The notes beneath the pieces were generated by a model. That model saw only the letters and a program-made list of their open reading frames with translations. It did not search any database and had not been told where the DNA came from. Below are positions 1 to 64,000 of a stretch of DNA of 64,000 bases, piece by piece (the first letter of the stretch is position 1; every line of letters starts with the position of its first letter). The DNA is from Branchiostoma lanceolatum (taxonomy: Eukaryota > Chordata > Leptocardii > Amphioxiformes > Branchiostomatidae): the NCBI RefSeq assembly GCF_035083965.1, contig NC_089725.1, forward strand, positions 32,429,524 through 32,493,523. The letters run 5' to 3'. A program made the translations under genes and the position numbers.

Positions 1-112
1 ATTCAGTCAGAATTGCCCTGAGGAAGGTGACAGGCGGTCGCCCTCTTTGTTATCCCTGTGAGCGACTGATTCATGGATGAAAGCGTTGACTGTCCTGTTC
101 CCTCCCCACCAG

Positions 113-3100
113 GCGTCACAGACAGCGACATCAGAGGGACGCCCTCCGCATCCCCCATGCCCCCCCTGGAGGGGCAGGAAGATGGTACGTCCTCACCAGG
201 AACCCCCTGCAGCAGAGTGGACTCTCCCTGTGTGCAGCCAGGCACCAGCACCTCAGGTGAGAAAACACATGCTGGAGATGTTCTTATTGATTGTCGGATA
301 GATCACTCGATCAATTGATTGATTGATTGATTGATACACTCAGGATAGCTAAAAATATATGAATGCATTCCTTGGACTTATTACACTTCGGGGAAGATTG
401 AGGTATATGATTGATAGTTGTTCTTAACCATGAGAAAAAAGGCCAATCCCCCCTGTAGCTTCCCTTCCAACTGCACATTACAAGCAGTTGTATATCCTAT
501 GGGGGAAACTGTTCTTTTAAGGTGTGCGGCCTCACCAGTGTGAACCCCCTGGACAGAGATGCTTGGAAGTACAGTGTGAAGACTGCTGCCCACCCCTGTG
601 TCAGGGACCCCAGCAGCAGTATCATGAAATAATGGATACTTCTACTATGCTTTACAACTTTGCTGTTCTGTCAAAAGGAAACCCCCCTGAACAGCAGCCA
701 TCTGAGGAGAAGCTGTCTCTGGAACAGCAGCAGACACAAGAACAACAGCAGTCACAGGAGCAACAGCAGTCTAAGGAACAGCAGCTATCACAGGAATAGC
801 AGCTGTCAGAAGAGATAACCCAACTGTTCTATATTCTGCCCCAGGAAACCCCCCAAGCAGAAGCTGTCTGAGCAGCAGCTATCTCTGGTACAGCAGCAAT
901 CACAGGAGCAACAGCAGTCTAAGGAACAGCAGCTTTCAGAGAAGGAGATAACCCAATTTTTCTATATTCCACCCCAGGAAACCCCCCTGAGCAGCAGTCT
1001 AAGGAACAGCAGCTGGAACAGCAGCAAACACAAGAACAACAGCAGTCTAAGGACCAGCAGCTGTCAGAGGAGGAGGTGATGGGGAAGATCCTGTCGCCCT
1101 TCGCGGGGATCGCGCCGGCCCTCGGCCCCGAGCCCACGCCGGAGAGCCTCGGCATCAAGGACTCACTCGACGAGTGTCTGAAGGTTGCCTCGGAGAAAGG
1201 TCGGTGTTTCCTGACTGTGGTCTGTTAAACTGTGCTTGCATTATATGAGAGACAAGACGACTAAACGATGCTTAGTTTTTAGGTATTGTTCGGTACTGTT
1301 TCTTGATTTGCATAAAAGCTTGAATCTTGAAAAATATTTGTAAATTTTAGATAAGAATAAGTACTTGTTTGTACTTTTGAATAAAGTTTGTCTTTTTGTG
1401 TACTAGTCTAAGGATGGAATCTGCCTTGAAATATTGGTTACCAAAAATGTGCAGCCTTATTTATGATACTGTGTGTTGATGTTTGTGTTGTGTAGAGGAA
1501 GGTACAGAAGATGAAGATGGGGAGAAAGAGGAGGGAGGAGAGCTGGACCTGACTGGCATTAACGATGAGGAGCTGGACTGGGTTTGTACATTTTGTTATG
1601 TAGATCTCATCTATATATATAACTTGCTACACGACATTGGCACAGCATTGCTACTGGTGGAAACATGTAACAATATCCAGAAAATCAATGCATGCTTCTC
1701 ATTCTACACTGTGCTTTTTGTTCTCTTTGTGTTGAAGATTTTCTAACAGTAACACCTGACAACCAGCTGAAGCATCATAGTTTTTTTATGCCTTTCAGTT
1801 CCTTTTGAATGACGAAGAGGTCAGAATAAAAACTGAGATCTGGACTGTGGCCAACGCAGACTATATCCAGAAGATGAAAGGTAAGAAGACTCTAGTCGTC
1901 AAGATATGTAGGTTGTGCATAAAGTCACTTATTACAAGGCATCATCGGTAACTGTCTCAGCATGCCCTAAAACATGTTGGCAGCTTAACTGCCCTGACTG
2001 TCTTTGATAATGATAATTGAATATCTAGACTTCACCAGAGTAACTATAACCAGATAGGGAGTCATTTGCCAGGGGAGTTTGGCCAACATGGGGTTTCATT
2101 TGCCTGCTTCAAAGGAGAAATGTTACCCTTCCCACTACTGACTCTCCTGGCCAATTATTCACCTTATTGCTGCTGAATTCTACTATCCATAACCTCTTAC
2201 GAAGGCCAGGCGGAGGCTCTGTCTGTACTGTGATCTTGTAAATCCAAGTTAATGCTTTCTGCCACTAACAGTGAAACGTGCTGTTCTACATTCCAGAGAA
2301 AGAAGAAAAAGAAGCGTTAGAAAGGGAACAGGGAATTCATAAACCTGAGCAGAAAAAGGTGAGGTTTTGTCTCCCTATACCCTGGGAGCCAGACACCGCA
2401 TATCGGCGTGCCACCGAGCACTGCACGCACGCCCAAGCTTTCCCGGCCCACCCTCCCGCTACCCCCAAAGACCGCCCCAATCTCCGCTGTAAACCCAAGC
2501 ACCGCTAGCCGAATACGGAGATTGGGGCGGGGTTGGTCTTCGGGGGCAGCGGGAGGGTGGGCCGGGAAAGCTTGGGCGCGCGTGCAGTGCAAGGTGGCGC
2601 GCCGATATACGGTGTCTGGCTCCCAGGGTAGTCTCCCTAAGGTACTGTAATGTGCTGTAAGGCACTGTAATGTGCTGTAAGGCACTGTAAGCTGTGTGCA
2701 GGAGACCAAGAGTTTTTAGGCTTCAAAACCTTCATTGTATAGAGATGAAGTCTACTTGAGACTCACCATCTGATCTGAGAATGATAAAAGATGTCGTCGT
2801 TTTACAGTAGCATATTGTATAATGTACAACATATGTATGCTATTGTAAGATTTGGCCCTGAGTTGAACCAGAAAGGATACATGTGGTGGGTTCTTTAAGG
2901 TGCTCGAGGTGTGGCTCTCCTTAAACACGGGACTTCCAGCTTTACGTCCCATCTTAGAGAACATCCCTAACCATAGCTAGGTACTCATTTTCACCTGACT
3001 TGTCTCACAGAATATAGGATTATTACTAAAACACGACACGCTAGTCCTTCACTCCTCTGACCACACTACTGTGTTTTTCCACAGAAAAGAAAGCCGAAGA

Positions 3101-6100
3101 AAAAACAGCCCATCCAAGCGAGCACCGCAGGGGAGGCCATCGAGAAGATGCTGCAAGAGAAGAAGATCTCGAGCAAGATCAACTACGACGTTCTCCGGGA
3201 CCTGAACAAGGAGACGGAGACCAAGAAGCCGCTTGATATCATCACGCCGAGCCGACTCACACCCAGCAGACTCCCGCAGCCGCTCATGTCCCCCGCCGTG
3301 CCCGCCAGGACGACGCTGAGATTACCCACGGGGGCCAGCAGTAAGAGGTGAGACCTTAGATAACCCACGGGGGGCAGCAGTAAGAGGTGAGACCTTAGAT
3401 AACCCACGGGGGGCAGCAGTAAGAGGTGAGACCTTAGATAACCCACAGGGGCCAACAGTATAAGAGGTGAGACCTTAGATAACCCACGGGGGCCAGCAGT
3501 AAGAGGTGAGACCTTAGATAATCCACGGGGGGCAGCAGTAAGAGGTGAGACCTTAGATAACCAACGGGGGGCAGCAGTAAGAGGTGAGACCTTAGATAAA
3601 CCACGGGGAGCAGCAGTAAGAGGTGAGACCTTAGATAACCCACGGGGGCCGGCAGTAAGAGGTGAGAACTTAGATAACCCACGGGGAGCAGCAGTAAGAG
3701 GTGAGACCTTAGATAACCCACGGGGGCCAGCAGTAAGAGGTGAGAACTTAGATAACCCACGGGGGGCAGCAGTAAGAGGTGAGACCTTAGATAACCCACG
3801 GGGGGCAGCAGTAAGAGGTGAGACCTTAGATAACCCACGGGGGGCAGCAGTAAGAGGTGAGACCTTAGATAACCCACGGGGAGCAGCAGTAAGAGGTGAG
3901 ACCTTAGATAACCCACGGGGGCCAGCAGTAAGAGGTGAGACCTTAGATAACCCACGGGGGGCAGCAGTAAGAGGTGAGACCTTAGATAACCCACGGGGAG
4001 CAGCAGTAAGAGGTGAGACCTTAGATAACCCACGGGGGCCAGCAGTAAGAGGTGAGAACTTAGATAACCCACGGGGGGCAGCAGTAAGAGGTGAGACCTT
4101 AGATAACCCACGGGGAGCAGCAGTAAGAGGTGAGACCTTAGATAACCCACGGGGAGCAGCAGTAAGAGGTGAGACCTTAGATAACCCACAGGGAGCAGCA
4201 GTAAGAGGTGAGACCTTAGATAACCCACGGGGGGCAGCAGTAAGAGGTGAGAACTTAGATAACCCACGGGGAGCAGCAGTAAGAGGTGAGACCTTAGATT
4301 ACCCACGGGGGGCAGCAGTAAGAGGTGAGACCTTAGATAACCCACGGGGAGCAGCAGTAAGAGGTGAGAACTTAGATAACCCACAGGGAGCAGCAGTAAG
4401 AGGTGAGAACTTAGATAACCCACGGGGGGCAGCAGTAAGAGGTGAGACCTTAGATAACCCTTGGTAAGAGTAATACTAATAGGTGAGAACACACAATCTG
4501 CAGCCACACCAATTTATTTGCTGGGTTCTCAGGCATTTTAAAACTCCAGCAAAATGGCAATATGGAAACAGAAGGCTGGGAGGAAACTTGAAGGCTGGCA
4601 GGAGTACATTCACTATATTCACATTTAGTGTTGTGTTCTTTTACAAGTGTTATGGTAATTTTGCTCATCTGTCCACCTAGAGTTGACCTGTATGCCATTT
4701 CATGAATGATTCTGTAAGGGTTTGCATGGTTTAGCTAGTTTGTCGGCTCTGTGTTCAAATATGTAACATGACTTTTTGTTGTCCTCTTTCGACAGACCTC
4801 ACCTGAAAGTTGAGGAAACAGGAGAGGTGAGACTTTTTTTAGTTGGAATATTTTTCTAAGTGCATGCTGTTACACCAGATTAGTTGACAGGTTTTCAAGG
4901 TACTATAGACCGATCCTGACTGCCCATCACAATTAGCAGTTCAACCAATGAGGGAGTGACTGCATGCTCGTCAAGTTTTTTGTTTTGGATTTCAACGTTT
5001 TGACGGAGGTGGGCGGGGCTATGGGATCGGTCTATTAGTCTGTTTGTATAGCTGATATCGTTGTTATGACACTCCTGTGTTGTCCTTTGTTTATGTTTGT
5101 TTGTTTGTTTGTTTGTTTGTTTAGAAACCTGTTGTTAAGAGACCAAAGCTGGAGGGTTCGGAGGTGGTGGTGGAGACGGGACCAGTGGAGTACGCGAAGG
5201 TGGAACCAGGTACGAACTCATAAACAAAAACAGATAAACAATCTAGGTACGTCATTATAAACAAACACAAGTAAACAATCCAGGTATGTCCTCACAAACA
5301 CATACAAACAACCCAGGTATGTCCTAATGAACAAATACAAGTAAACAACCTAGATATGTCCTTATAAATGCAAATAAACAATCCAGGGGTGCCCATCTTT
5401 AGATGGCCGTTGAACAGCAGATACATGAACATGAACAATTTAGCCATCTGTTGAGGATCAGCAGAGGGTTAAAGATGTCAGTTTTAGTAGGAATCAGCAG
5501 GTTGAGGGTTAAATATGTGATGTATCATATTACAGGTACCGCGGACCATGAGGAGGAAGCTGAGGAGGATTACTATGAGGAGGATGAACCAATCAGTGCA
5601 GCTCAGCTCATGGGGAGAACAGGTGGGTACTTATTCCATTCTCCTATTGGCTAGTCAATGAACCAATCAATGCAGCTCAGCTCATGGGGAGAACAGGTCT
5701 GTACCTTTGCCATGCTCCTATTGGCTAGTCAATGAACCAATCAGTGCAGCTCAGCTCATGGGGAGAACAGGTGGGTACTTATTCCATGCTCCTATTGGCT
5801 AGTCAATGAACCAATCAGTGCAGCTCAGCTCATGGGGAGAACAGGTCTGTACATATTCCATGCTCCTATTGGCTAGTCAATGAACCAATCAGTGCAGCTC
5901 AGCTCATGGGGAGAACAGGTCTGTACCTTTGCCATGCTCCTATTGGCTAGTCAATGAACCAATCAGTGCAGCTCAGCTCATGGGGAGAACTGGTGGGTAC
6001 TTATTCCATGCTCCTATTGGCTAGTCAATGAACCTATCAGTGCAGCTCAGCTCATGGGGAGAACTGGTGGGTACACTGTTTATACTGCAAACTTCCCTTG

Positions 6101-10954: not shown

Positions 10955-11128
10955 CTGAAAGTACATTGAAAACCAGCGTTATCCATCATTGTTTTTATCT
11001 ACGTGTATATATCTATTGCTCCATTGTAACATTGCAAGAATGTTGCTATGTTGCTATCACAACACGAAAGCCAGTCCAGCATAAAGGGTGGTAAATGGTA
11101 ACAGTTATACAAGTGACACAGTGACGGG

Positions 11129-11233: not shown

Positions 11234-11247
11234 AGTGACGGGCACAC

Positions 11248-11366: not shown

Positions 11367-11496
11367 TAGATAACACGTCTCTGTTCCATTATATGTCCCT
11401 GACTAGCACTGGGTCTATCGTGCTCTTTATTGACAACAAAGCAGGAACGTTACAATGTCGGCCAGCCTCTGCGCGAATCCCTGAATCGCCATGATG

Positions 11497-11941
11497 ATAA
11501 GAGTAGAGTAGAGTAGAGTAGAGTAGAGTAGAGTAGTGTAGAGTAGAGTAGAGTAGAGTAGAGTAGAGTAGAGTAGAGTAGTGTAGAGTAGAGTAGAGTA
11601 GAGTAGAGTAGTGTAGAGTAGAGTAGAGAAGAGTAGAGTAGAGTAGAGTAGTGTAGAGTAGAGTAGAGTAGTGTAGAGTAGAGTAGAGTAGAGTAGAGTA
11701 GAGTAGAGTAGTGTAGAGTAGAGTAGAGTAGAGTAGAGTAGAGTAGTGTAGAGTAGAGTAGAGTAGAGTAGAGTAGAGTAGAGTAGAGTAGTGTAGAGTA
11801 GAGTAGAGTAGAGTAGTGTAGAGTAGAGTAGAGTAGAGTAGAGTAGTGTAGAGTAGAGTAGAGTAGAGTAGAGTAGTGTAGAGTAGAGTAGAGTAGAGTA
11901 GAGTAGAGTAGAGTAGAGTAGAGTAGAGTAGAGTAGAGTAG
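11497..11941 (+). repeat. (GAGTA)n pentanucleotide satellite, about 445 bp
   Basis: Nearly uninterrupted GAGTA with scattered GTGTA variants. It lies about 30 bases into the intron after the probable donor of exon 11973-12521. Read on the minus strand it gives an open STLLY repeat which is not considered coding. Confidence 0.95.
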
Positions 11942-11972
11942 AATTTCCAGTTTGAAGATGAACGTTTAATAC

Positions 11973-12521
11973 CTCCTCAGGCTCACACAGCTCCCCTGAG
12001 CCGGCCATGCCAAATGTACCCATCAGGTCGAAGTCCTCCCTGCGGTCGTCCTGCCGGCAGAACTCCCTCAGCAGACTGGCGACGTCCGCCGAGTCCCTCA
12101 GCACCAGGAGCCGCTCGCCCGCCGGCCGCGTGTACACCAGCACGGGCAGGCCCGAGTCTTCCGCGAACAGGCAGGCGTTGAAGAACTCACGGCCTGCCCA
12201 GGCGATGTAAAAACCAGAGAAAATTTCGTAGGCGAAGTCGTAGTCTAGCCAACCAGAAGGAGCTTCTTTGTCGGCAGTATAAACGTTACGTGCATCTGGA
12301 AGTTGAAGCTCTTGCAGGACTCTCTGCAGCGCCTCGAGCTTTCTCCTCTCGGCGTCGCTATCCGTGCGAACCCTCAGCGTATTGAGCTTTTTCAAAGTTT
12401 CGTCTGCACCAAGGGGCTGTAGTGACATCCGCAGCCTTGGATGTATGTCGTTAGCTGCCGCTGGGACGTTGCTTCGCTCCTCATAAACCGCGTCGGTATC
12501 CTCACCAGATCTAGACGCCAT
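11973..12521 (-). CDS. Unrecognised 183-codon first exon, possibly N-terminus of the TEX30-like gene
   Basis: ATG at 12521; open for 183 codons to CCTGAGGAG|GTATTA, a plausible donor in phase 0. I do not recognise the family. The first 90 residues are polar, with a stretch from about 50 (SDAERRKLEALQRVLQELQ) that could form a helix. Residues 90-170 look globular, with SGWLDYDFAYEIFSGFYIAW, FFNACLFAEDSGLPVLVYT and a Leu-rich segment around VLRDSADVASLLREF. No signal peptide or membrane segment is evident. The phase-0 donor fits the phase-0 acceptor at 10954, so a 430-residue fusion with the hydrolase is possible; a separate gene ending elsewhere is the alternative. It is head-to-head with LGMN, ATG to ATG 444 bp. 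Continued translation past the donor only meets the pentanucleotide satellite. Confidence 0.6.
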
Positions 12522-25120: not shown

Positions 25121-25390
25121 GTCTTTCAAAGAGCTGTTCTACTTAAACAAGACTGTGTTTATGTCACATTTTAGACAGATTGTAAGGAAGTAAATACAAA
25201 CATTTGATAAGAGTTTTTATATCGATTTCAATCTAATCTTCATGTGGCAGAAATTATACTTGATGAAGGAAATGAACCTGTTAGTTACTGTCTGCAAGAA
25301 TACATAAAAATTACACCGAGTCGTTGTCCCTGCCTCCTATTTAATAGCAGGAAGTCCTGTCTGGTGTGTAGCTAGTGCACAGAGAGAATT

Positions 25391-28896: not shown

Positions 28897-28967
<71 letters not shown>

Positions 28968-43100: not shown

Positions 43101-46100
43101 TAATGTACAATTCTGCAGGAAAATAAACAAGATAATATCAGACAGTATATCAATTAACTATCATGGATGATTCTGGAAAACCATTGGAGTCAGTGGACAA
43201 AGAGGTGGAGTTACAGGCAGCCGTGGTCGTGACCGAGACACAATCTTCATCTGATAAATGTTCAACCACAACCATCAGTGCTGAGGACAGGAGCCAGGGA
43301 GCCCTGGGAGGTACTGGTAATATTCCTCAAAGATGAGTTACTGTAGATGACATACATGTAGTACTTTAAATCTTTAAATATTCTTGGCACTTCAAGATTT
43401 TCGTATTACTTCTCCACCGCCAACTGTGTACAGGCGCCAGTATTTTGGTCATGTTGCTACCAATGTGTTCAACCGCAAACACTCGAATTTCACCATTCTG
43501 CAAAATCTAAGTGATGTGAACCTAAACGAATTTTCAGCATGAGAAAGAAGGAGATGATGTATAATGAGGAGGTCCTTACTTGCTCATCTCGTAGAGGAAG
43601 CTGTCGGCGCGCGCCATCTGGTCGATCTCGTGTTTGTGCTCCTCCAGAAGGTCCGTCTCCTCCTTCGTGGGGACGAACTTCAGAAGCTGTCGGGGAAACA
43701 AACAGGTCAGCATGAGCAAAGAACTGTTACAGTAGTACTAAAGTCTGGTAATGTCACACAAACACTGATTTGGCTTGAAGATCCAATAGTGCTTTCTTCC
43801 CAATCTCTGCAACCTGCCTTGGAGCTACCAAAGAAGGATGATCAGTCTACAAATGTCATGAAGTAAAGGGAAGTATGCCACACAACAACCTGTAGATTTT
43901 AGGATGACAGCCTGCTTTGAAAGACTGTGCAGTGAGTTGGTCCTGACCTATTCGACCATGTCCTTGGGCAGCTCGTCAGCCTTCTTGACTTACAAACACA
44001 CCCACACCCACGCACGTGCACACCCAGAGACACACGCACACCGACACGTACACACACAAACACACACACACAGGCACACACACACATACACACAGACGTT
44101 ACCTGCTCCACCATGTCCTTGGGCAGCTCATCAGCCTTGTCCACGGACACACACACACGCACACACACATGCACACACACACATAGACACACACACAAAC
44201 ACACACACAGACAGACACACACACACACAGACAGACACACACACACACAGAGGTTACCTGCTCATCCATGTCCTTGGGCAGCTTGTCGGCCTTGTCCACG
44301 TACACACACACACGCGCACACACACATAGACACACACACAAACACACACGCGCACACACACACGCACGCACACACACACAGACAGACAGACGTTACCTGC
44401 TCGACCATGTCCTTGGGCAGCTCGTCGGCCTTGTCCACAAACACACTCACATAAACACACACACATGCACACACACACGCACACACAGACAGACGTTACC
44501 TGCTCCACCATGTCCTTGGGCAGCTCATCGGCCTTGTCCACGGACAGCACGGCCTTGGCGATCTCCTCGTTGGTCATCTTGAGCTTGGACAGCAGGATGG
44601 TGCAGTTCTGGGCGCGGCGACCCTCGATCACCGACAGCTCCTTCACGCGCGTCTTGATGGTCAGGTCCTCCACATCCTCCTCTTTCTGTAAGACACCACA
44701 CACAACACTTAAGACATCCAGTAAGACCCCTGGAGAAAGATGCCTTTCCCATTTCTTATGTAGTTTACCATAATGATATAATAAGTTTTGGTGTAAAAGT
44801 CTTCACTGATATATGTATATGAGTTTGAAACTTCACTACTGAATGTTTTGAAATGTTGACTGTGAAAGTATCACTGCACACATATACATTTGAAGTCAGG
44901 CCTAATTTGAAGACTCAGGTGGTTGTTTTGAACCTAAATACCACTTAGAAAAAACAGCGTGTTTGAGAGATCTCTAGTGCAGCACCTCACAGCATAGATC
45001 TGCAAGTGCATTATACTGGGGGATGTTGCATTGGAGATCTCTTTAGACACGTTTTTTCACGGTGGCAAATATATGTGACTTGGCAGAATTATGTTAGTAG
45101 AAGTTAGAGCAACTTCCTAACAAAATTTCAATTTAACCCAGTTCTGATTTACAAGGGGATCCATTTAGTCTATTGCTACCAACTGATATGTTAACCTTTA
45201 GCATGCCAAGCAAACTGCACAATTTTTATAATTCACACTTTGCCCACAGCAAGCTAAAGGTTAACCATATCATTTTTGTAAGTGAGTGCTACGATGCTTA
45301 GTGGTGTAATGCCCTTGTCATGGGGACGTGTTTACAACGTGGAGAATGTACTAAATGTAGCCTGGAATCCACTGGATGGGATATATAGTGACTGCTGGAA
45401 GTGGACTGAAGAGAACAAGACTGGATTCCAGGCTAGAACTAATGCTGGTCACTTTAGATCCGGAAAGGCAGCAGAAATTTGGAATTTGAACACACATATA
45501 TATCTTAAAAACCAATAATCTCAGTTACTACAAACGCTGAGGCAGAAATAAACTCAAGATTCTGTCATTTTGGAAGTGTTTGTTTTTGCATTTTTCGTGG
45601 TGATCTCTTCACCACAAATTTATGACACCACGATGTTCAAATGTGCTTCTCGCTGTAACTCTGTACAGTAACTCTCTACTGATTTTCCAAGTTCAAAGTG
45701 ACCATTGTTTTAAGGTGAGTGTGAAGAGAATGTAGATGACGGTGACTCCTGCGTCTATGTGAGGTGTGAGGGGGTGACGTTTAGTTATCATATTGTGTTG
45801 TCTGGCTCTGGATTATTGTGTGAGGAAGTGAAGCAACAGTTTAGTTGTCTGGTTCTGGATTATACCATTCCATGTCTCCGAGGGTCCTCCGCCAGACCGC
45901 CTCTCTGCTGAACAGAATAACACAGACATGCCGTCACCGAATCGTTTGTATGTTTTGCATAACTGGTAAACATGCCAGTTTTTCTGAACAGTGTAAGTAC
46001 AAGCTGCATAAGGCTGCACTGCACGCCAGGAAGGACTCCTACTCTCTTCGATAAGTGTGGAGGAATTTTAATGTGCTTAAGGTGTCACAGTGGCTATCCT

Positions 46101-52100: not shown

Positions 52101-55100
52101 CAACCATACCATACCACTTCGGTGCATGGGGGAGACCTGTAGTGTGCTGAGGGTTAAGTAGAACAGCTAAAGGTCCCGTACATACATTGGTGTACACAGA
52201 AGGCCAACACCATAATAGACGGCTAAACCATGTTCCAACACAACAAGATATAAACTGATACAGATGCAGACTTCCAGGCAACTTTGACCCACTCCTGAAG
52301 TCAGACATATAGTTGTTGTTTTGGAACACAGCTTTGCTATCTGTGATGTGAACCACCGACACAGATAAACGTTTGTGCTACCATCCCACGTCACTGACAC
52401 ACCATAGGGATGGGAGAGGTTGGGGGCTTAACGCACATGTCAATGTCAACCAACAGGCCCTCTTCACGCAATGAACTGACATCTGGTTCCCATGCACATC
52501 CTAGGGGTTCGCCGGGCTGCAAACTTTAAAGTGGATGAAACATGAGTGGAAAGAAATCATACATCACAGTCAACAGGTTGAACTCGGGAAAATGGAAAGG
52601 GGGTACTGTACGAAGAGGGGAGAGTATGGGAGAACAGAAAGAAGATTTGTCTACCTGCCCAGAGCGAGAGGATCATTACACAGTCTGCAGACGGAGGGAG
52701 GGAAGGAAGGAAGAGTGGCAAAAGGAAAGCACAGACGGGAAAACACAGGAAACAACAAAACATGAAACATGACTATTGAGACAATTATGAGCAAAAAATG
52801 GCTCTGTGCTTCAAGGAGAGTCTCCAAAACAAAATTATCTAGTGTTGATACATGACTAGAAAAACAGCAGCCATCAGGCTTCTTTGAACAGACAAGGGGG
52901 CGGTACAAACTTTGCTACTTTGACCCCCTCCTTGAGTCACATGACTAAAGGAGTAGTCTACTTGTCCTTTTCTACATTGTTGGACTCCAACTTCAAGCAA
53001 AATTTTCATCTAGACAAGTATCAAACTGATGTTGAGACACTGACATCAAACATGCGCAGATAGCAGCATGACAAATTTAGAGCAACTTTTCTTAAACTGA
53101 AGTTGAACCATACATAACAACAGTCTCAGGAGGACAGTTTGAGAAGGTACCATGAACAGAAATCTATTACATAACTCTGACCCCAACACAGAAAGAAATG
53201 TGGGAAACATCAGCACACATGAAGTATGAAAACCGTGGTGCTGACTTACATCTCGACCAGTTGGCTGACGTTGATGTTCTTGAGTGGCGCGACGTCGGGG
53301 TCCATGCCATTCTCCTGGACAACGATCTGCTGTAGGATGCGGTCCACCAGCTCCCAGTACTCGGGACTGCCATGCCTGTCCACTGTATAACACACATAAC
53401 ACATGTTAGCTAAGGATATAGCTAACACACAAGCTCCCAGTACTCCGGACTGCCATGCCTGTCCACTGTACAACACATTTATACACACATAACACGTGTT
53501 AGCTAACCCTACAGCTAACCCCACAGCTAACTCACCAGCTGCCAGTACACAGGACTGTCCACTTTGGGAGCACACGATAGGTTAGTAAGGTAAGGTAACC
53601 TGAACCTGTAACCCAATGTAACCAAAGATTGGTCATTCCAACCTGAAGAAGGCTATAGTAGGAATACTGTGTAGGAAGGAACATTGTTTGGACATTGTTT
53701 AGTCTTCAACAATAATGAACACTCATGCTGCTGTCAGCATCGTGCTAATCATTAGGTACTGATAACGTCTTAACTTAATCTTTAAGAAGGGAGACAGTCT
53801 TGACTTACGCGGCAGCAGGAGCAGATGTTGGAGGAGTGACAGGAAGTGAGGGTACGCCGCCGTGTGGTTCAGCTTCTTCTTCAACAGGTCGAACATGCTG
53901 CCGGCGCTGCGCGAGTCCACATGGACCTGACGGACAAAAACATAAGGTTTTCAACAAACATTTCAATTTGTAAAATACAAAATACATCAAGCAACTGGAT
54001 AAAGTAAGGTGTAATCTTCCTTGATCTATCTCGTTTCAGTTTTACAATTGCACAGTTCCATCACACTGTAGCAGGAAAAGTTTCCCCTGATCTTTCCAAC
54101 AAGTACAACAAACACAGCTCAACCACCACCCTTTACAGGTAGCTTTAATCTATGACAGAGTGAACTACAATATATAATAGTAAAGATAAAAATGAACTGA
54201 TTATTTTTTTGTTTGATATACTTCTTTTAATTTGTCTTTAACCTTTAATCTTTACCAAAACCGATGAAACAAACCGATCCAGTTCTTAGACTAATGAAAA
54301 CATGCTATGAAAGTTCCAGGTATTTTCTTTCCTTACCACATCAAATCTCTTTGCAAGTTCCTGTTCATCCTCAGTTCTGATCAGTTCAAAGAAGTCTATG
54401 TGCCTGCAGGGAAGCAAAAAACATACAGGAGAGTCAGGCATCAGCTAATAACACAGGAACATAAGATAGCAGCTTCTCAGGAAACCAATTGGTTTTGGCA
54501 ATCTTGACTGTCCTGTCACTATCATATCAGATAGAACTGAAGCACTGTTACAGTAGTTTCTACCAGACTAACCACACCGGCTATAGGGAGAATATTTGCC
54601 AGGGTTTCATTTGCGGGCGAAAAGTGATCTTCACCATGTACTGATTCCTACTGTTGCAATTTGACAAAATAAATAGATTCTACTGGCATATTATTTCCTT
54701 TTTCTGCTGAATTCTACGATCCATACACCCGTAGGAGGGCCGGGTGGAGGCTACTGTTACCGTACTATTTCTTGTATAAATTATGACAAATACTTCGACT
54801 CTGGAAAGACACTAAAATCTGTAGCTGTGAGTGTCATGACAGAAATACATGACTTTGTCAACATGGGAGACTTGATTTGACATTCAGCTAGAATTTGGAA
54901 TATGAAAACATTAAGTTCCAAATTCCCAGTGTCTTCCAAATGTGGCCAGTGTCGGCTGCATGTCATTCTGGTAGAAATGTTATATAATGTTCAAGCAGTT
55001 TTTTTTTTCGACCTATCTGAACAAAATGCCAAACCAGAGAATTGGATAAGTGTGGCCTAGTTAAAGAAACAGGCCCAGTACAGCAGTACAAGGCAGTTCT

Positions 55101-58100
55101 AAGAACCCCTCGGGATGACAGGCTGACACACAGTTTACTCTAATGTTTCCACACAGTCGACTGTGTTTAAAAAACAGAATAGCTGAGAAGGAACGTTATA
55201 TCAACAGGAGAGGAAAACAGGGAATTGACATTTTGACAGGTCATACTGGCCGCATAGACAAGCATTTTGGCATATCAATTCAATCATCTTAAACCACTTG
55301 CTGCTTCAAATTTGATATTTACTTGTTACAATACTGTCTGGTTATTTTAAATTTGGAAGGACAGACCGTAAGATCAGATTTGGTGACAACAAAAGTTTAA
55401 ACTTGATGCAATCCAAGGGTACTCTATTTCTTAACCTATCTGAGACTGCATTTTCACAAGTCTTACTTAATATCTAATATTCTATGATGGGTACCTTACC
55501 TATCTAAGATTGCATTTTCATGAGTCTTACCTATCTAAGATTTCATTTTCATGAGTCCGTAGCTTGTCTATGATGGGTTCCTTACCTATCTAAGATTGCA
55601 TTTTCATAAGTCTTACTTATCTAATATTCTAAGATGGGTTCCTTATCCTTACCTATCTAAGATTGCATTTTCACAAGTCTTATACATGTATTATACATAT
55701 CCAATATTTTAAGATGGCCCTTAACTATCTAAGATTGCATTTTCATGAGTCCGTAGCTTGTCTATGATGGGTTCCTTACCTATCTAAGATTGCATTTTCA
55801 TGAGTCCGTAGCTTGTCTATGATGGGTTGGATGCCCAGCATCAGAAACTCGTAGCGCAAGTGGACCCTGAATTCCAGGCTCTCCTGCGATAAGAAATAAA
55901 TACATCAATTAAATACATGGTATAAATGAATCTTCTGCTTCTTTATATAGGTCACACCAAGTTAGTTTATCGGTTCTCTGATTTAGAAAAACAATGATGC
56001 TGTACTGAAATATCCACATGAAAACAGAGTCTGAGGGGAAAGTCTGAACCTTGGCACACACAGTTATACTTCAAGTACATTGTACATATAGCCAGATTCA
56101 AGTTTTCCACCCAGCCCTCTGTTTTCATATTTACCAGTTGCTAAATTTCACCTTAATATTTCAAAGAACCAAGCAAATAAATTGGTGTGGCCTCAGCAAA
56201 AGAAAATACAGTAAACCAGGATCAAAGCTAGCCTCAAACTTTTCTATGCAAAGAAAAACTCACCTGTTCGGAAAATGAACCTCAAACAAAGCCGTACACC
56301 ACAGAGGAGAGATACTATTGCAGTTTCCGGATCATTAACACATCCTCTACCTAAAGGCTACTATAGACACCTAACCCTGAGCCGGGACTTCGGTACAACA
56401 ATCCTGAGTTATTCCCAGCAGGTGGCCATGAAGGAAACTGAAGAAACCAGGAATTTCGAGGTAACACATTTATCTAAGCATCCATGAAGACATCTGAGAG
56501 ACACACCGGTAGCTCTGGGGGTCGCACCGACCTACAGCTTACCACTCGTTTACCTTTGTGGCTGAGGGAACATGTGGTGACCTTTATGTAAGGTTCTACA
56601 TTATATCTTATATAAGCTAATATATATATGTATATTATAAAGAGAGAGAGCTTTATGTAATCTATATATCTCTTACATTAAAGCTATCTCTTACATAAGC
56701 TGTAATGTAACATGATATATAGGGGAGAGATCATGATCTTTACCCCATATAAGATCACGAACAACAGCGAACAGTAAGCTTTTCCATTCTGCAAGATTGC
56801 CATCCCTACCCTAATATATATAATAATTGTATAATATTACATCTTACATGAGAGATAGATACACAGATATCTATCCATATATTATCTTATGTAATACCGG
56901 TGATTGTCACACCTGGGCAACACATGCTCTCCTTACAAGTGTTATAGGTTAAGCTGATTCGGAAGCAAAACTAGTAAAATATGACGAATGCTGAGTCATC
57001 ACTTGCACAAGATCTGCTTGTGAGTGTGCCTTTTCCGAAGGAAAAAATGAATCGATTTCGGACCCTAGCAGGTTCTAACGGAACTGCAGAGGGTGATGAA
57101 TGGGATGCTCACCTTACAAGCACCATATCTGAACAAGGTTAAATTTCGGAACCCTAGCGGCTCAATTGGAACTGCAGGAGATGATAAACAGCATGCTGAC
57201 CTCACCAGCACAATATCTACCAAGCCTTTTTGCAAGGAACAAATTATACAATTTTTTTACCCCTAGCAGCTTCTCTGCTGCTGCAGGAGTTAATGAAATC
57301 ACCTCACCAGTACCATATTTGAGCGTGGCTTGATTTCAGACCCCTAGTGGCTTCCCTAGGAACTGCAGGGGTTGGTGTACTCACCTCACCAGCACCATAT
57401 CTGAGCATGGTGTTAATGAAGAACCCCTAGTGACCCTGATGTGAACTGCAGGGGTGTGTGTACTCACCTCACCAGCACCATATCTGAGCATGGCGTTAAT
57501 GAAGGACCCCTAGCGACCCTGATGTGAACTGCAGGGGTTGGTGTACTCACCTCACCAGCACCATATCTGAGCATGGCGTTAATGAAGGACCCCTAGCAAC
57601 CCTGATGTGAACTGCAGGGGTGTGTGTACTCACCTCACCAGCACCATATCTGAGCATGGCGTTAATGAAGGACATGATGGCTGTTTTCAGGTTGACCTCC
57701 TCCCTGTACACCCCCGTACTGCGGTCCAGGTCATGGATCAGCGACTGACGGAAAGAGACAGGAAAATATGCGTCAAATAAAAGAGGTGGTGAAATCATGC
57801 ACAAGTATAACTTAAAAGTTCCTCTGTGTTGGTTGAAATCATTCTGAAGCTGAGTTGAATTGTAATATAATTTCCTACACAGTAATTGGACCCAAATTTT
57901 GGGCTTATCAAGGAATGAGACGGTAAAAAAATTAGGTAACTGCAGTTTATTGGGTGTCCAATTCCTTGATGAAGACTCCAGTTGGACAGCCCAAAATTTG
58001 GGTCCAATTGCAGTGTAGAAAATTATGGTTCATCTCTGCTTCAAAACACTACTACAGTTGAAGGGCAGTCATGCAGACCAAAGACCAAGGGAAAGAAAAA

Positions 58101-61100
58101 GACAGCACAACAACATAGAAAATTGCAGTTAACAAACAAGAAAAAAAATCAAACAGGGCTGAAAATGTCAACTTTAAAACAGCAAAAAGGATCCAAAGCC
58201 CTGAAACGGCTCTCCTTAGTCTTTACCTCTCTTGGTCCCAGCCTTGAGCGTCGGTGAAAGAGCGGCAAGTCATGGAAGAGGGACTGGTCACCAGATCACA
58301 CACACACACATACACACATACATACAGGAGAGTAGGAGTACAGAAGGGCTTCAGAATTTAGAAATTAGATGTTCCAGTGTCTGCCAAACTATACTGAAGA
58401 ATGGTGAGAATGAAGTAGAAAGTATCGTGCACAAGCACACATACAAACAGAAGAGCTTCAGAAGTACTCCACAGTTTGAATGGAGCCTGCCATACACTAC
58501 AGAAGTAAGCCACAGTTAGAGTGCTGTGATGCCTGCCACATACAACTGAAGAATGCTGACACTTAAGTAGAAGTTTCCATTAAAAACTGAATCACTTGTA
58601 TAATGTACAGCCGGCGTGGGAATACATGACAAGTACATGAGATAATACAACAGGAATGTGGAAGCCAAGACATAACACTTTCCTCCAATAGGGGAGACCT
58701 GCATGTACGTCACACACATGAGACAGAGTTTTCACTGATAGAGAAAACAACAAGGGGACCTTGGAGGGTTCACATAGTTCCCACCAGAACTCTTTAAATT
58801 TAATCTGATCATGAATTTGGAATTCACAAAAGACACTGTGGATTTAGGGGACAGGTTTAACTTTGAGGTGAATATCTGTGTAGGAATGTTATTGCTATAT
58901 TATTATCTTTATTACGCCAGCAATAAAGATATTGACGTATTACAGGGAGAAGGATGCTTTACTTTCAGGCTTCATCAGATTTTCTTTAGATCCCATTTTT
59001 TTTCCAAATTCAATGTGATCAGTGCCTTTATAGAGTGAGGTGAAGAAATGAATAAATAGAAGGATGGATGGACGGTACATTTTGTTTGTAATGCAAAAAC
59101 CACCCCCTGGCAGCCAAGCGGCTGAATGACAAGGTTTGGATACAGGGTAATAACCAACTTGAAGCTCTGTGTGCTTCAATGCAGGTTCGTGTGTCTCCTA
59201 TTGGGTCAGTGAGTCGAGCTGGTCTCAATTATGATGTTTCTGACTTAGGGAGAGAAGATGTTGTCACAGTCCTATTCATGGATTTGTATGTTGTGTTTTG
59301 TATACTATTTATTGGCAATGAAACAATTCATTACACTAGGCCAGCCAAGGCAGCTCTCACTGGTAATGGCTGACCCACCAAAAATGCATAACCACCACTT
59401 AGGTCAGTGCCCAGAGGTTGCCTCTCAACCTCGTACTGAGTTGAAGAAAAGACTTGTTAACCAACTCATTAAGGAAACGGTCTGTACCTGAAATCTTGTC
59501 CTCTCGGCGGAGTAGTTCTGGTAGTGCAGCATGGCCTCCAGCACCTTCTTGTGCCCCCCCTCCACCAGGCACACGGCCCCCAGGATCTCCAGCACAGCCA
59601 CCTTCGTCTTGATGTTCTCGCAGCTCAGACTCTGCGCGATGATGTTGATGCTGCTGTGGTGGGCCAGCACATGGGACCTGCCATGCTGTAAACAAACAAA
59701 CAAACAAATAAATAAATAAACAATTTCAACACACATTACAGCTCAGGCTCTGCGCGATGATGTTGATGCTGCTGTGGTGGGCCAGCACATGGGACCTGCC
59801 ATGCTGTAAACAAACAAATAAATAAATAAACAAATAAATAAATAAACAATTTCAACACACATTACAGCTCAGGCTCTGCGCGATGATGTTGATGCTGCTG
59901 TGGTGGGCCAGCACATGGGACCTGCCATGCTGTAAACAAACAAATAAATAAATAAACAAATAAATAAATAAACAATTTCAACACACATTACAGCTCAGGC
60001 TCTGCGCGATGATGTTGATGCTGCTGTGGTGGGCCAGCACATGGGACCTGCCATGCTGTAAACAAACAAATAAATAAATAAACAAATAAATAAATAAACA
60101 ATTTCAACACACATTACAGCTCAGGCTCTGCGCGATGATGTTGATGCTGCTGTGGTGCGCCAGCACATGGGACCTGCCATGCTGTACACAAACAAACAAG
60201 CAAACAATACATGAATAAACAATTTCAACACACATTACAGCAATCTGACACATGGCCATGGGACCAGTGCCATGGTACAAACAGACGACAAACAAGAAAT
60301 TCAAGAACTCATACCTTCATGAAATATTTTGATTTATTTTTTTAACTTCTTGTTTTATTTGTTAGGCCATGTTGATTCAATTATATGGATGACATCAATG
60401 TACACATCAATTTTTGTCTGATTCCAAAAACAAAGGAGTTTTCGTCCATACCGTAAATCGGTTTTCATAGAAGTAAAAAATCAACAATTTCAACACACAG
60501 AAAAACACTTAACTATCACTAAAGTTAATGGACATGCGCACAAAGCCCAGTTTGCATGTCCACCATTTTTTCTTGTTATTATTTTTGGGGAATTTTTTCC
60601 TGGTGAAATCTTTGGTCAATTTTGGCCAGTTTTCGCGCAGCGAGACCAGACATGTGTTAACTTTTCAAATCCAGAAAGAAATTGTGACCTTTGACCTTTG
60701 TTGTGGTATAGAATTGCATCATTTGGGAATGGGTTTTCCCCTACTAGACCAGCGATTCCCAGCTGCAGGGGGTAAGATCAGGGTTTGTTTACGTTCAAAC
60801 ACGTCTAGTGCGTTAGAATGCAGGAGTCGAATCCCGGCTTTTTCCAAAAACGGCAACTAGACATGTTAAGCTGTCCAGTGGATGGAAGTTTTTGGACATT
60901 GAAATACTATTAAGTGTACTTTGAAGCCTGTTTTTGATCCCTGTTTTGTACATAATCTGATGGATGCCTGTTCAGCTACTCCCTCCCCTAAACACTAGCA
61001 CATTAATATGGGACCTGCCATGCAGTAAGGAACATATACGGTAGGGGGCTCTTCATGCATGTAGATAGCAACAGGCCGATTTGAAATTGTCATGAATAAA

Positions 61101-62574
61101 CAAAGGTTAAAAAAAAACAGAGAAACAAACCAACGTACTGAGTTGTTCATGAGCGCCTTGATGCAGCCGATGATGGAGGTGTGGATTCTGCTCTCAGACG
61201 TCTCGTAGTCCATACTCTGCAGGAAGTTCAGCAGGCACGACAGCCCGTCCAGCTCGATGAACCTGTGCACGAACCTACGGAGGAACACACATCGTCATGA
61301 CAACCAGCTCGATAAACATGTGCACGAACCTACGGAGGAACTAACATCGTCATGACAGCCCGTCCAACTCGATGAACCTGTGCACGAACCTACAGAGGAA
61401 CTAACATCGTCATGACAACCAGCTCGTAAACCTGTGCACGAACCTACGGAGGAACAAACATCGTCATGACAACCAGCTCGATAAACCTGTGCACGAACCT
61501 ACGGAGGAACACACATCGTCATGACAACCAGCTCGATAAACCTGTACACGAACCTACGGAAGGAACACACATCGTCATGACAACCAGCTCGATAAACCTG
61601 TGCACGAACCTACGGAGGAACACATCGCCATGACAACCGACGGAGGAACACATAAAGCGGGATGTTTTTTCTATAATTTTTTTGGGGGGGGTACTTCTTT
61701 TGCGTTCTCTTTTATCGATATCTCCGTAAAGTTCATCATTCATATATTCAGGTTTCCCAGAGGCACCAGTACTTCCTATGATCCTGACCATTCGTCAACC
61801 CGACAATCAATACAACATAACCTGATACAGTCATGCCCGGGGGCAAGTCCAGCATGAACATCAGATGGTCAGCTAATGGCAGGAAGGGATATTACAGTGT
61901 CCACATAAATCAAATATACTTTTTAATCCATTTTGCTGCCATCAAGGCACCACATTTGCCGTGGAAACGGTCCAGAACGACATCATAAACGCCTTTAGAA
62001 GCGGCGGGGCGAACGTCTGGCACAAATGAAGCTTCTGATCTAATTTCTGATGCGCTCAATGGATTCCAATAAAACCAGTATGATCAAGTCATAATTGAGG
62101 TGGTTCCTGGCAGTGTAACTCTCTATGGAAGCTCATCTGCACCAAGGGAGTGATGACATATTGGCTATGGTTTGCGCCACAAAAAGATTAGCTGTTGTGA
62201 ACCCATAATGTCTTAACCGTGTACCAAGAAAACTGATGAACTGTCACTGAACACCTAAAATAAGTTTTACCACATGTACAGAACAAGCCTGTAATTCACT
62301 CTATCTAGTGTTACTCACTAGATCGGGAAAACGGAGGGACTGAGAGAGTGAGAGAGAGGAGCAAGAGCAAGAGAGGGAGTGAGAGATCAAGGAGAAAGAG
62401 TTTACTAGGTGAAAGAGTGAGTAAGTGAAAGAGTGAGTAAGTGAAAGAGTGAGTAAGTGAAAGAGTGAGTAAGTGAAAGAGTTACCTCATCGGCTGTGTC
62501 CTGAGCGCCGTCTTGAGACTGTCGGCCAGGTTTGCTCGTACCGTCACCTCGTCATCATCGTGGGCGAAAACAAG
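37139..62574 (-). CDS. DAAM1: DAAM1, Disheveled-associated formin, 23 exons (5' partial)
   Basis: Diaphanous-related formin acting downstream of Dishevelled/Rho in planar cell polarity; it nucleates and elongates actin filaments. Exons in order: 62574-62486, 61274-61139, 59685-59488, 57744-57634, 55883-55780, 54403-54337, 53926-53809, 53382-53250, 51917-51791, 51349-51227, 49275-49068, 48549-48434, 48119-48075, 47920-47858, 44685-44500, 43686-43580, 43112-43024, 42681-42513, 42081-41974, 41223-41163, 38856-38725, 38345-38175, 37441-37139 (TAG). All phases agree: 987 residues, lacking roughly the first hundred of human DAAM1 (1078). Domains in order: GBD/DID ([40 protein letters not shown]), coiled coil ([27 protein letters not shown]), Pro-rich FH1 (49068-48434), FH2 ([40 protein letters not shown]) and DAD ([18 protein letters not shown], then basic KLKRNRRR). 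The DAD indicates normal autoinhibition. At least seven junctions border self-copy arrays. Confidence 0.97.
37788..38150 (+). repeat. tRNA-derived SINE, best copy
   Basis: The head has an A-box-like TGGCGCAACGGCAGAGC and a B-box GAGTTCGAATCC in tRNA spacing. The body CCCTTGGGAAAGGCTCTTTA, CTTTCCTCACTCCACCCAGG and GGTGGCGCCGAATGCCAGC follows, with an (ATT)n-type tail near 38130-38150. It was probably transcribed by Pol III when active. It lies in a DAAM1 intron, opposite to the gene. Confidence 0.8.
39590..39735. repeat. Dispersed repeat, copy 1
   Basis: Contains GTGTTTGAGAGATCTCTAGTG, GTGCATTATACTGGGGGA and GGCAGAATT in an order also present at 44952-45105. Inner GAGATC-type strings near the ends may be weak inverted repeats. 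Confidence 0.65.
39943..39987 (-). CDS. DAAM1: Candidate 45-nt in-frame cassette exon of DAAM1
   Basis: Between exons 41223-41163 and 38856-38725, the minus strand has a strong acceptor (TTTGTCCCACAG), 15 open codons [15 protein letters not shown] and a donor GTACGA. Both junctions are phase 0, so inclusion keeps the frame. Its wording resembles the start of the next exon ([16 protein letters not shown]), so it may be a diverged duplicate of that exon start. It would add a basic segment near the C-terminal end of FH2. No expression evidence is available. Confidence 0.3.
41342..41925 (+). repeat. (ACTC)n microsatellite, about 580 bp
   Basis: CACT/ACTC tetranucleotide with CCCA and AGAC interruptions, about 50 bp beyond the donor of DAAM1 exon 42081-41974. 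It yields false THSLTHS reading frames. Confidence 0.95.
42682..42875 (-). repeat. Three extra copies of a DAAM1 acceptor and exon start
   Basis: The segment CTTAGATGCTACAAGTAAAGCTGGGAAG at the start of exon 42681-42513 recurs near 42722, 42785 and 42845 in the upstream intron. Each copy keeps AAAG|CTGGGAA or AAAG|CCGAGAA, the acceptor on the minus strand. Confidence 0.8.
43940..44499 (-). repeat. Four decoy copies of a DAAM1 exon end, separated by (CA)n
   Basis: The exon 44685-44500 end, about 45 bp reading [12 protein letters not shown] on the minus strand followed by GTAACGTCTGTGTG, recurs near 43950, 44102, 44257 and 44396. The spacers are (CA)n tracts of 100-115 bp. Three copies retain GTAAC; the most distal one, near 43950, has lost it (CTATTCGACC). 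Confidence 0.92.
44952..45105. repeat. Dispersed repeat, copy 2
   Basis: Same order of motifs as 39590-39735 (GTGTTTGAGAGATCTCTAGTG, GTGCATTATACTGGGGGA, TATGTGACTTGGCAGAATTA). Confidence 0.65.
45866..45907 (-). CDS. DAAM1: Candidate 42-nt in-frame microexon of DAAM1 (FH2 linker)
   Basis: Between exons 47920-47858 (ending TFSAYQKPQ) and 44685-44500 (starting KEEDVEDL), the minus strand has a pyrimidine-rich acceptor (GTGTTATTCTGTTCAG), 14 open codons [14 protein letters not shown] and a donor GTATAA. Both ends are phase 0. In human DAAM1 an alternative short segment of about ten residues sits at this same place in the FH2 linker. The residues are not similar, so homology is inferred from position only. 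Confidence 0.3.
46120..46290 (-). repeat. Dispersed repeat (AATTATTGGCCAGGAGAGTC family)
   Basis: Shares GGCCAGGAGAGTC, GAATTCTACG/GTATGGAT-like and CCAGGCGGAGGCT-type strings with 2060-2230 (inverted) and 54590-54770. Confidence 0.5.
46365..46566 (-). repeat. tRNA-derived SINE copy
   Basis: On the minus strand: GGTGGCACGGTGGTCTTGTG, a B-box GGGTTTGAATCCCTGG, then CCCTTAGGAAAGGCACTTTA and CTCACTTTACTC, matching the 37788 copy. The orientation is the same as DAAM1. Confidence 0.75.
48611..48933. mobile_element. Foldback dispersed element in a DAAM1 intron
   Basis: The left part TCCAACACAAAAATTGGACT and GCAGATAGAACATGTGACTC are mirrored on the right by GAGTCATGTGTTC-like, GTCTGCATAACG and AGTCCAATTTTTGTGTTGGA. 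A left-half copy lies at 21180-21345 and a diverged relative at 57850-58040. Confidence 0.65.
50352..50372 (+). repeat. Poly-G tract of about 20 bases
   Basis: An uninterrupted G run within a G-rich stretch; could form a quadruplex on the plus strand (C-rich in the DAAM1 pre-mRNA). Confidence 0.9.
53383..53565 (-). repeat. Duplicate of a DAAM1 acceptor and exon start
   Basis: CCCAGTACTCGGGACTGCCATGCCTGTCCACTGTATAACACACATA at the 5' end of exon 53382-53250 recurs at about 53432-53490 as CCCAGTACTCCGGACTGCC and so on, with a third degenerate copy near 53535. GTTAGCTAA spacers separate them. Confidence 0.8.
54590..54770 (+). repeat. Dispersed repeat related to 2060-2230 and 46120-46290
   Basis: Contains TTTGCCAGGGTTTCATTTGC, GCTGAATTCTACGATCCATA and GGAGGGCCGGGTGGAGGCT; the equivalent strings lie at 2070, 2173 and 2203 in BRF1. 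Confidence 0.55.
55480..55779 (-). repeat. Decoy copies of a DAAM1 exon end and donor
   Basis: CTTACCTATCTAAGATTGCATTTTCATGAG at the end of exon 55883-55780 recurs near 55496, 55528, 55585, 55651 and 55725, some copies extending to GTCCGTAGCTTGTCTATGATGGG. Most keep the donor (plus strand TTACCTATCTAAG); the one near 55725 has TTAACTATCTAAG and has lost it. Confidence 0.85.
56580..56900. repeat. AT-rich palindromic stretch
   Basis: Multiple overlapping TATAT/ATATA and CTTACATAAG/CTTATATAAG palindromes with a GAGAGAGAG run. No coding signal. It lies in a DAAM1 intron. Confidence 0.5.
57105..57633 (-). repeat. Graded array of a DAAM1 exon end and donor (six decoys)
   Basis: The end of exon 57744-57634 (plus strand CTCACCTCACCAGCACCATATCTGAGCATGG) recurs at about 57547, 57464 and 57381 with 83-bp spacing, and in more diverged form at 57301, 57199 and 57109. 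Decoys near the exon are almost identical and distant ones are decayed, as if the array grew from the exon edge. Confidence 0.92.
57850..58040. repeat. Foldback repeat related to 48611-48933
   Basis: AATTGGACCCAAATTTTGGGCTTATCAAGGAATGAG and its partial inverse near 57955-58005 form a hairpin arrangement. Confidence 0.5.
59686..60235 (-). repeat. Four extra copies of a DAAM1 acceptor and exon start
   Basis: The first 64 coding bases of exon 59685-59488 (reading [19 protein letters not shown]) plus acceptor GTTTACAG recur upstream with starts near 59803, 59929, 60055 and 60181. Spacing is 118 then 126, 126 and 126 bp. The exon part stays open in all copies. Spacers are (AAAT/CAAA)n. Confidence 0.95.
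61275..61640 (-). repeat. Array of a DAAM1 acceptor and exon start (about six decoys)
   Basis: Units of 48-57 bp copy CTCGATGAACCTGTGCACGAACCTACGGAGG, the start of exon 61274-61139 with its acceptor, followed by AACACACATCGTCATGACAAC. Most keep CGAAC|CTACGGAGG. Confidence 0.93.
62340..62485 (-). repeat. GTGAAAGAGTGAGTAA repeats at a DAAM1 donor
   Basis: About four 16-bp units end exactly at the donor of exon 62574-62486 (plus strand AAAGAGTTAC|CTCAT), preceded by GAGAG-rich sequence. Here the repeat lies on the intron side without copying exon bases. Confidence 0.8.
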
Positions 62575-64000
62575 CTGCAGGGAGAACAACAGGCAATAAG
62601 GTACGGCCACACGGACACAGGCATGAACCGGAAATAACAAAAAACTCAACAAGGAGCAATGAACACTTGTCACTTCACAGATGGAAAGTACAAATATCAT
62701 AGTCGGAAGCCAATTCCAACTTATTGCAACAGTTACTGTACAATGAATTGATACAAATATCTTTTTACATATGATTTAAAAATTCAATATTGCTTTGCTC
62801 TACGGATCATTATGCATTTTTATTTAAGTCAGTTTCTTTACAGTAAATAATGCAAAAAGATTATTGTTTGAAAATTTCTGGGTTCTTTCCACCTTTGAAG
62901 TAACTGGTGTCATGAAAATCATTCAAATGAATTGCTTGCATTTTCATTTGTAGGTAAACGTTCCAGCATTTGTGACAGTAGATTTAGATTAGTACAAAGC
63001 AATACATCATCTAAAACAACAATGGCAGCCATTCAGATCACAGCCAAACATTTGCTACATATTACATACAAGTTACTAAATACATACATGTACATGTACC
63101 AGTTAGGCTATATTGTACATTACAATAAAATAAAAATTTCCTGTTTGGCAGGTCAACATCTTGTTGATTTTGGATGAAGCATGCGAAAAAAGCTACAGGG
63201 CTAATGTTTCTAATCAAAATTTTCTTTCATTTCAATGAGTCGTGCCATAAAAGGAAATAATGAAAATAGAGACATTACAATTCTTACATTCAACCACTAA
63301 GACAGCCATGCTATGGACAAAGTAAGGATAGCGGAGCGTAAAAATGTTCAAGCAGGTGTTACAGGTGTATGTACAGGTGATACAGGTGTATATGCAGGTG
63401 ATACAGGTGTGTCTACAGGTGCTACAGGTGTGTCTACAGGTGCTACAGGTGTAGCGACATGTAGGTGCGACGTTTGGTTCGCTACAGACTCACCGCAGCT
63501 GCCAAGGGCCACTTACATGTAACGAATGTCAAAACAAGAAGACAGAAGAATTAAGTACGAAGTCGGCTGCTCATCTTTAGCAATCACGATAGCATGGTAT
63601 CCATACCTATCATAGTTGCCGAGTGAGTACATGTATCTCATGTACTCACTGCAAAAAGCCATTTGCAGCCAGGATAGGTTTGGGTACCAGGCTACAATCA
63701 CAAAGGAAAGTGATCATGAAGGAAGTCCTTTGGAATGACAGTGGGTGAAAGAATGGTTACCTATTAGTAAGTTAAACAACTTTGACCCAATTTCAGAGAA
63801 AGTTGCAAAACTGTTGCTAATCTCTACTGAAGGAGAACTAGCAATCGTCAATATATCATCCAGCATTCAGGTTAGATGTTAGATTACAATCATGTATATA
63901 CTAGATATGATAAAAGGAAAAGCACGTTTGGGAAATTCAATTTTCAAACTCTCATCCAGCCCTGCAAACTGACTTAGTTTTTTTTTAAACAGCTCTGCTT
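62575..64000 (-). other. DAAM1 upstream intron (no exon recognised)
   Basis: AT-rich sequence with no exon matching the N-terminal part of DAAM1. It contains a short minisatellite of ACAGGTGTGTCTACAGGTGC type at 63350-63460. The first exons must lie beyond base 64000. Confidence 0.5.

Follow-up and report, generated by a model that had tools for sequence, protein, structure and literature searches.

The amphioxus Branchiostoma lanceolatum carries, in a stretch of 64,000 nucleotides (the window), tandem arrays that meet the exon edges of several genes. In lancelets, tandem repeats that span exon-intron boundaries have been called "mirages," a term that comes from work on Adh3, and globin cases are described in the available part of PMC3087553. 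The locus raises the question of whether splice junctions themselves have been copied here, whether this has happened more often than the general abundance of repeats would predict, and what the copies mean for the genes that carry them.

Results

Three genes were placed in the window: BRF1 and LGMN, both on the + strand, and DAAM1, on the - strand. They were identified with Pfam, with PDB matches for DAAM1 and LGMN, and with tblastn searches using human proteins. Exon edges were positioned by hand, giving a set of 86 (42 donors and 44 acceptors) from these three genes plus two edges of a hydrolase gene. A scripted check of the joined blocks (BRF1, LGMN, and three DAAM1 blocks) bore out GT-AG and an open reading frame at 77 of the 86 edges; in these blocks the intact frame is given by the exon-proximal splice sites. 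The remaining nine, seven in the last DAAM1 exons and the two in the hydrolase gene, were placed by eye and display AG or GT without a frame check. The DAAM1 exon 10 donor, further FH1 exons, upstream exons of DAAM1 and BRF1, and most hydrolase exons lie outside the set. A likely last LGMN exon (exon 14) occupies positions 23766 to 23808 (+) and is coding, including the stop; its acceptor at 23766 was found later and is excluded from the 86-edge tests.

Arrays that copy splice junctions are real. Array loci were detected with TRF and their sequence was then read directly, and the arrays named in the initial annotation were found in this way (Table 1). We counted a junction as copied if the 30-mer across it (12 exonic and 18 intronic bases) had its best copy no more than 1.5 kb away and at no more than 4 edits. 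By this strict test, 12 of the 86 edges pass with 0 to 4 edits, comprising 7 of 42 donors and 5 of 44 acceptors: the acceptor at 978 and the donors at 3347 and 5622 in BRF1; the donors at 20633 and 23259 in LGMN; and, in DAAM1, the acceptors at 61274, 59685, 53382, and 42681 and the donors at 57634, 55780, and 44500. Among the other 74 edges, 72 have no match of the 30-mer within 8 edits and two match at 8. Three further arrays abut a donor (BRF1 5209, LGMN 21633, and DAAM1 62486). The annotation had counted 13 of about 45 junctions; 12 pass, while the thirteenth, at LGMN exon 10, is a weak case and the proper denominator is about 86. All seven DAAM1 edges that it listed pass, as do the LGMN junctions of exons 9 and 13, at donors 20633 and 23259. 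The LGMN exon 10 junction fails: its array begins at the donor and has almost no exonic sequence in common with it. For BRF1, arrays do exist at all three exons that had been named by positions 978, 3085, and 5536, but 3085 and 5536 are exon starts and the arrays lie at the donors 3347 and 5622. The 12 array edges and the 74 others did not differ significantly in GC content of the exon or intron side, in CpG count, or in being donors or acceptors.

Table 1. Arrays at or next to exon edges in the window (slashes mark the junction)
Feature	Coordinates	Strand	Description
BRF1 acceptor array (978)	700..1079	+	repeat offsets 128-166 bp; Q-rich copies with ccccag/GAAACCCCCC
BRF1 donor array, exon 3085-3347	3313..4469	+	39 bp x 29; GT kept in all 28 decoys
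BRF1 array abutting donor 5209	5206..5387	+	33-70 bp offsets, ..CCAG/GTA repeated; strict test failed
BRF1 donor array, exon 5536-5622	5578..6080	+	74 bp x 6.6
LGMN exon 9 donor 20633	20617..21166	+	a single copy 510 bp away, at 21143
LGMN array abutting exon 10 donor 21633	21640..21843	+	40 bp units
LGMN exon 13 donor 23259	23243..23390	+	3 copies of GTGGACAG/GTGAGTGTGTGTCTG
DAAM1 acceptor array at 42681	42642..42880	-	about 60 bp, 4 copies
DAAM1 donor array at 44500	43940..44550	-	copies 103-155 bp apart; unit of 42 exonic bases, donor, then TG-rich; 4 copies and a decayed fifth by eye
DAAM1 acceptor array at 53382	53342..53557	-	a clear copy at 53465, plus a decayed one by eye
DAAM1 donor array at 55780	55427..55837	-	mixed 31/55 bp units, 7 copies, one TT for GT
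DAAM1 donor array at 57634	57101..57679	-	83 bp x 4 close to the exon, with three decayed copies farther out
DAAM1 acceptor array at 59685	59616..60504	-	126 bp x 5, ~66 exonic bases each
DAAM1 acceptor array at 61274	61232..61630	-	55 bp x 7
DAAM1 16-bp array, 4 bp downstream of donor 62486	62394..62482	-	unit without exonic bases

Some of these loci have peculiarities of their own. In BRF1, 978 is taken as the used acceptor by frame fit, without a basis in homology, and the array at 5209, absent from the initial annotation, shares about six exonic bases by eye. The 39-bp BRF1 array encloses an open frame of 341 codons (3442 to 4464, +); because the unit equals 13 codons, the frame recurs in every copy, and its length is no evidence of coding. 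A BRF1 intron also contains an inverted repeat (2378 to 2478 and 2530 to 2630) with 101-nt arms that are 91% complementary and spaced by 51 nt, which looks like a fold-back element. At LGMN exon 9, a LINE-like fragment recognized by eye separates the two donor copies, so the duplication would predate that insertion. Also between these copies is an open frame (20701 to 20976, +), which we take to resemble a LINE-type reverse transcriptase at its C terminus.

We also compared exon sequence alone, aligning the terminal 40 exonic bases of each edge with up to 1 kb of adjacent intron and using 25 other introns per edge and the antisense strand as controls. Own-intron scores reach 23 to 40 at 10 of the 86 edges, whereas the best of the 25 other introns never exceeds 15 and antisense never exceeds 12. 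The two LGMN donors, 20633 and 23259, score just 12 and 13 because little exon was copied there. Altogether, 15 of 86 edges beat their own 25 controls and antisense, against about 3.2 expected, and four of the 15 have no array. Strong exon echoes thus occur in an edge's own intron and in sense orientation only, among the 86 edges and 25 other introns per edge. This agrees with the earlier proposal of independent events as opposed to one dispersed family, in that exon ends have no strong copy in the 25 other introns compared. Sequence shared between arrays in different introns, as introners or another dispersed element would give, was not found, with no score above 15 of 40 in 25 introns per edge. 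Since the arrays do not resemble other introns, they are separate events.

The window holds several other features. Pieces of an alpha/beta hydrolase gene lie between BRF1 and LGMN at 8500 to 10980 (-), with a match to PF20408 (E 7e-16) and outer limits set by eye; its two tested edges have no array by the 30-mer test. The long open frame of a further gene, at 11430 to 12542 (-), runs into a 443-bp array of AGAGT pentamers. Outside the placed genes are a 43-bp array (34506 to 35183) and a 22-bp array (24549 to 25123), and an exon edge there is possible. Rfam gave no match at the gathering score, and Pfam searches of 23.3 to 36.9 kb (both strands) and 62.5 to 64 kb (- strand) gave no family above the cutoff. 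A Pfam match to Defensin_beta_2 (E 0.01) was below threshold and was set aside.

The answer to whether junctions are copied more often than expected changes with the null. Counted by position, local repeats take in 11 of 86 edges (at most 4 mismatches) or 12 of 86 (at most 5), amounting to 13 to 14% of edges, compared with 11.0 to 12.6% of intronic and 10 to 12% of nongenic 30-mers, which is no excess. Likewise, when 83 edges were circularly shifted along the gene spans, equal or more matches were obtained in 36 to 44% of 5905 shifts. These figures favor an explanation by chance and tolerance, in which a genome rich in minisatellites happens to have some that include edges, with no special link to junctions. 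However, the raw-position null is to be rejected because the decoys themselves fill the introns and so raise the background. For an array to contain an edge, the edge must already have been in the segment that was duplicated first, and later copies only fill the intron; a null in which each array is collapsed to one seed is therefore the appropriate one.

In the seed test, the 18 gene arrays in the three gene spans were each collapsed to a single seed and placed uniformly. An edge is spanned by 12 of the 18, against 2.3 to 2.6 expected (P 3e-8 to 6e-8), so that seeds on exon edges are about five times commoner in the window than uniform placement predicts. The test leaves out 11 of 29 repeat loci, ten of them outside the three gene spans and one inside, at 49090 in the proline-rich region of DAAM1; with the latter included, the count is 12 of 19 (P 4e-8). 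If every probability is doubled, P is 1e-4. Two harsher versions still show 9 of 25 against 3.0 (three cases dropped and ten hypothetical intron-only arrays added) and 9 of 16 against 3.6 (probabilities doubled and the three weakest dropped), each with a P of 0.0013. Of the six gene arrays that are free of an edge, with extents set by hand, three lie within 30 bp of one, against 0.45 expected (P 0.007). The locus list and units of the seed test were set by hand, and the hydrolase gene is outside the spans of both nulls. An excess over chance therefore holds within the window for seed duplications and not for raw positions. Chance and tolerance would fit the label of mirage but not this excess, and we regard that explanation as unlikely. 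This result depends on the seed argument and on hand-set units in one window, and the numbers describe the window and not the genome because the window was picked as odd-looking.

The initial annotation had itself raised the possibility that edge arrays are simply easier to see, in that a conserved exon half would keep old edge arrays visible longer than intronic ones. The idea is reasonable in principle; the young arrays speak against it. Among gene-span arrays that TRF scores at 90% matches or better and with a unit no shorter than 30 bp, an edge lies inside seven of eight (3319, 5584, 44353, 55495/55719, 57360, 59621, and 61249), and the eighth (62394, 16/32 bp) abuts one. Arrays this young are not made more visible by exon conservation, so visibility is not the main reason for the pattern. 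The exon-echo scores of the 86 edges leave a gap between 14.5 and 23. This suggests that arrays turn over quickly, without a long tail of decay, although individual arrays, such as that at DAAM1 57634, decay outward. We consider a detection bias quite improbable as the source of the pattern.

The arrays run into the intron, downstream of donors and upstream of acceptors, in 12 of 12 cases, just as had been noted. When a donor is duplicated, the upstream copy is the one joined to the exon, and when an acceptor is duplicated it is the downstream copy; an unchanged protein thus forces the extra copies into the intron. The polarity is dictated by geometry and is therefore uninformative about mechanism.

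The extra copies might be used as splice sites. There are 67 decoy copies across the 12 arrays, 28 of them from the single array at BRF1 3347. GT or AG is kept in 65 of the 67, and when the copies are scored with a matrix derived from the 74 array-free edges, 60 of the 67 reach at least the 10th percentile of used sites. Judged from these signals, the decoy sites that had been anticipated are present as candidates. The further suggestion that they buffer against splice mutations is not supported, because none of the 44 decoys that entered a frame test leaves the frame open: a stop would be introduced by 41 and a frame shift by 3. The test, with phases entered by hand, leaves out 22 decoys of the BRF1 3347 array and one at BRF1 978.

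In six of the 12 arrays, three of them with shortened exonic or intronic stretches, 29 of 234 exonic and 25 of 143 intronic decoy sites are variable, a difference that is not significant (P 0.18); this comparison omits three units at 57634 that have decayed and a truncated one at 5622. DAAM1 57634 is the sole array of the six with significantly fewer variable exonic sites (P 0.014). Mean divergence between decoys is lower in the exonic part in seven of nine arrays, which could reflect weak constraint or conversion with the exon. Selection on decoys is weak at most. An explanation by selected function, with the copies kept as spare splice sites, either as a buffer against mutation or to regulate splicing, can draw on the site scores and on the less diverged exonic parts, but it is opposed by the stops and frame shifts, by the lack of a significant overall difference in variable sites, and by the large share of decoys that one array supplies. 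We think it very improbable.

The initial annotation had also suggested that the arrays could be a route to intron gain or boundary sliding. Of the 12 array edges, 7 are reached by an alignment with a human or PDB homologue, and no shift appears at these: DAAM1 61274, 59685, 57634, 55780, and 44500 in comparison with the human protein, and DAAM1 42681 and LGMN 20633 in comparison with PDB entries. LGMN 23259 fits by eye after exon 14 is added. BRF1 978, 3347, and 5622 and DAAM1 53382 were left out of this check.

Discussion

Mirage minisatellites, as described in lancelets, are in our view the best explanation of these arrays, with a probability of roughly 0.8. Segments that straddle a junction have been tandemly copied, separately at each edge; the copy that touches the exon keeps the protein intact, and the others are intronic. 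We infer that the exon-proximal copy would remain the choice of the spliceosome, as expected under exon definition, and that this continued choice would leave the extra copies close to neutral. Array size may then rise and fall by unequal exchange and slippage, with outer copies decaying. The excess at edges would reflect where duplications start or survive. The simplest scheme may be exon-centered duplication in which products internal to the exon are purged and edge-spanning ones are tolerated.

Lancelets are very heterozygous, and this lends some plausibility to the idea that the arrays are assembly artifacts created from heterozygous haplotypes. According to the available part of PMC3087553, a published mirage varies from one haplotype to the other and was misassembled in the draft genome, and haplotypes of BflGb6 have 6 and 3 copies; against an artifact here stand the short units in up to 29 copies, the fact that every locus is different, and the lancelet PGBD5 repeats, which in the accessible text of PMC3902484 were confirmed by resequencing, and we give the idea hardly any credence.

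Among processes that could produce mirages at this density, we raise, tentatively and as a possibility that we do not favor, a tandem duplication that is directed at exons, with exon-marked chromatin, transcription, or R-loops as examples of what might guide it. Internal products would be selected away, and the survivors at edges would renew intron ends. If so, mirages would be the visible rim of a mutation hot spot centered on exons.

Mirages have so far been reported gene by gene, as far as the available parts of PMC3087553 and PMC3902484 go, whereas here about 1 in 7 edges is affected within 64 kb. The seed-collapsed null turns an anecdote into a measurable excess. If the excess extends genome-wide, it would suggest a duplication process tied to exon edges, and the arrays would offer a natural test of how the spliceosome chooses among up to 29 near-identical neighboring sites.

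The closest known systems are in lancelets. The available part of PMC3087553 describes mirages at either exon edge, with units of 10 to 72 bp in Adh3 and 150 to 160 bp in BflGb6, and includes BflGb9 as another mirage globin. AG or GT is present in many copies but not all, and intron gain is proposed; RT-PCR suggests that regular splicing is undisturbed in the globins, and the Adh3 data agree (PMC3087553, same part). Lancelet PGBD5 has 2 or 7 repeats of 60 bp and 3 or 6 of 108 bp that abut or overlap splice sites, and troponin C (TnC) is cited as a further case (PMC3902484, accessible text). The window resembles these lancelet mirages in that the repeat unit contains the exon-intron boundary (at 12 of 86 edges, or 10 of 86 by exon alone), both edge types are affected (7 of 42 donors and 5 of 44 acceptors), and many but not all copies keep GT or AG (65 of 67).

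More distant systems share parts of this pattern. Human genes in segmental duplications also have minisatellites at exon-intron boundaries, with units averaging about 30 bp; in the part of PMC2812944 available, these repeats change exons and can create introns, whereas no changed exon end is seen in the window where it can be judged. Intron gain through tandem genomic duplication, in which an AGGT is duplicated, is reviewed in PMC3443670 and likewise involves the copying of splice signals; in the portion available, the outcome is a new intron within an exon, formed from the stretch that was duplicated. In the window, in contrast, the copies sit in an existing intron. A single human gene, IFI6 (6-16), has a minisatellite with several splice donors that are reportedly used, and it is like the window in having an array of donor copies at an exon end. 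The available text of PMC2206037 on amphioxus huntingtin mentions tandem repeats in scaffolds and contains nothing on mirages. We recognized no genome-wide count of mirages in a literature search whose reach mostly excluded subscription papers.

By analogy with the published lancelet cases, the arrays in the window are best read as a dense set of further mirages, a phenomenon already known in these animals. They differ from the published examples in that many edges are affected in three genes of one window, here seen in the sequence of one haplotype. What is new is the density of 12 in 86 edges, the local excess under the seed-collapsed null, the recognition that nothing about mechanism can be read from the polarity, and the result that decoys, where tested, are unable to serve as spares.
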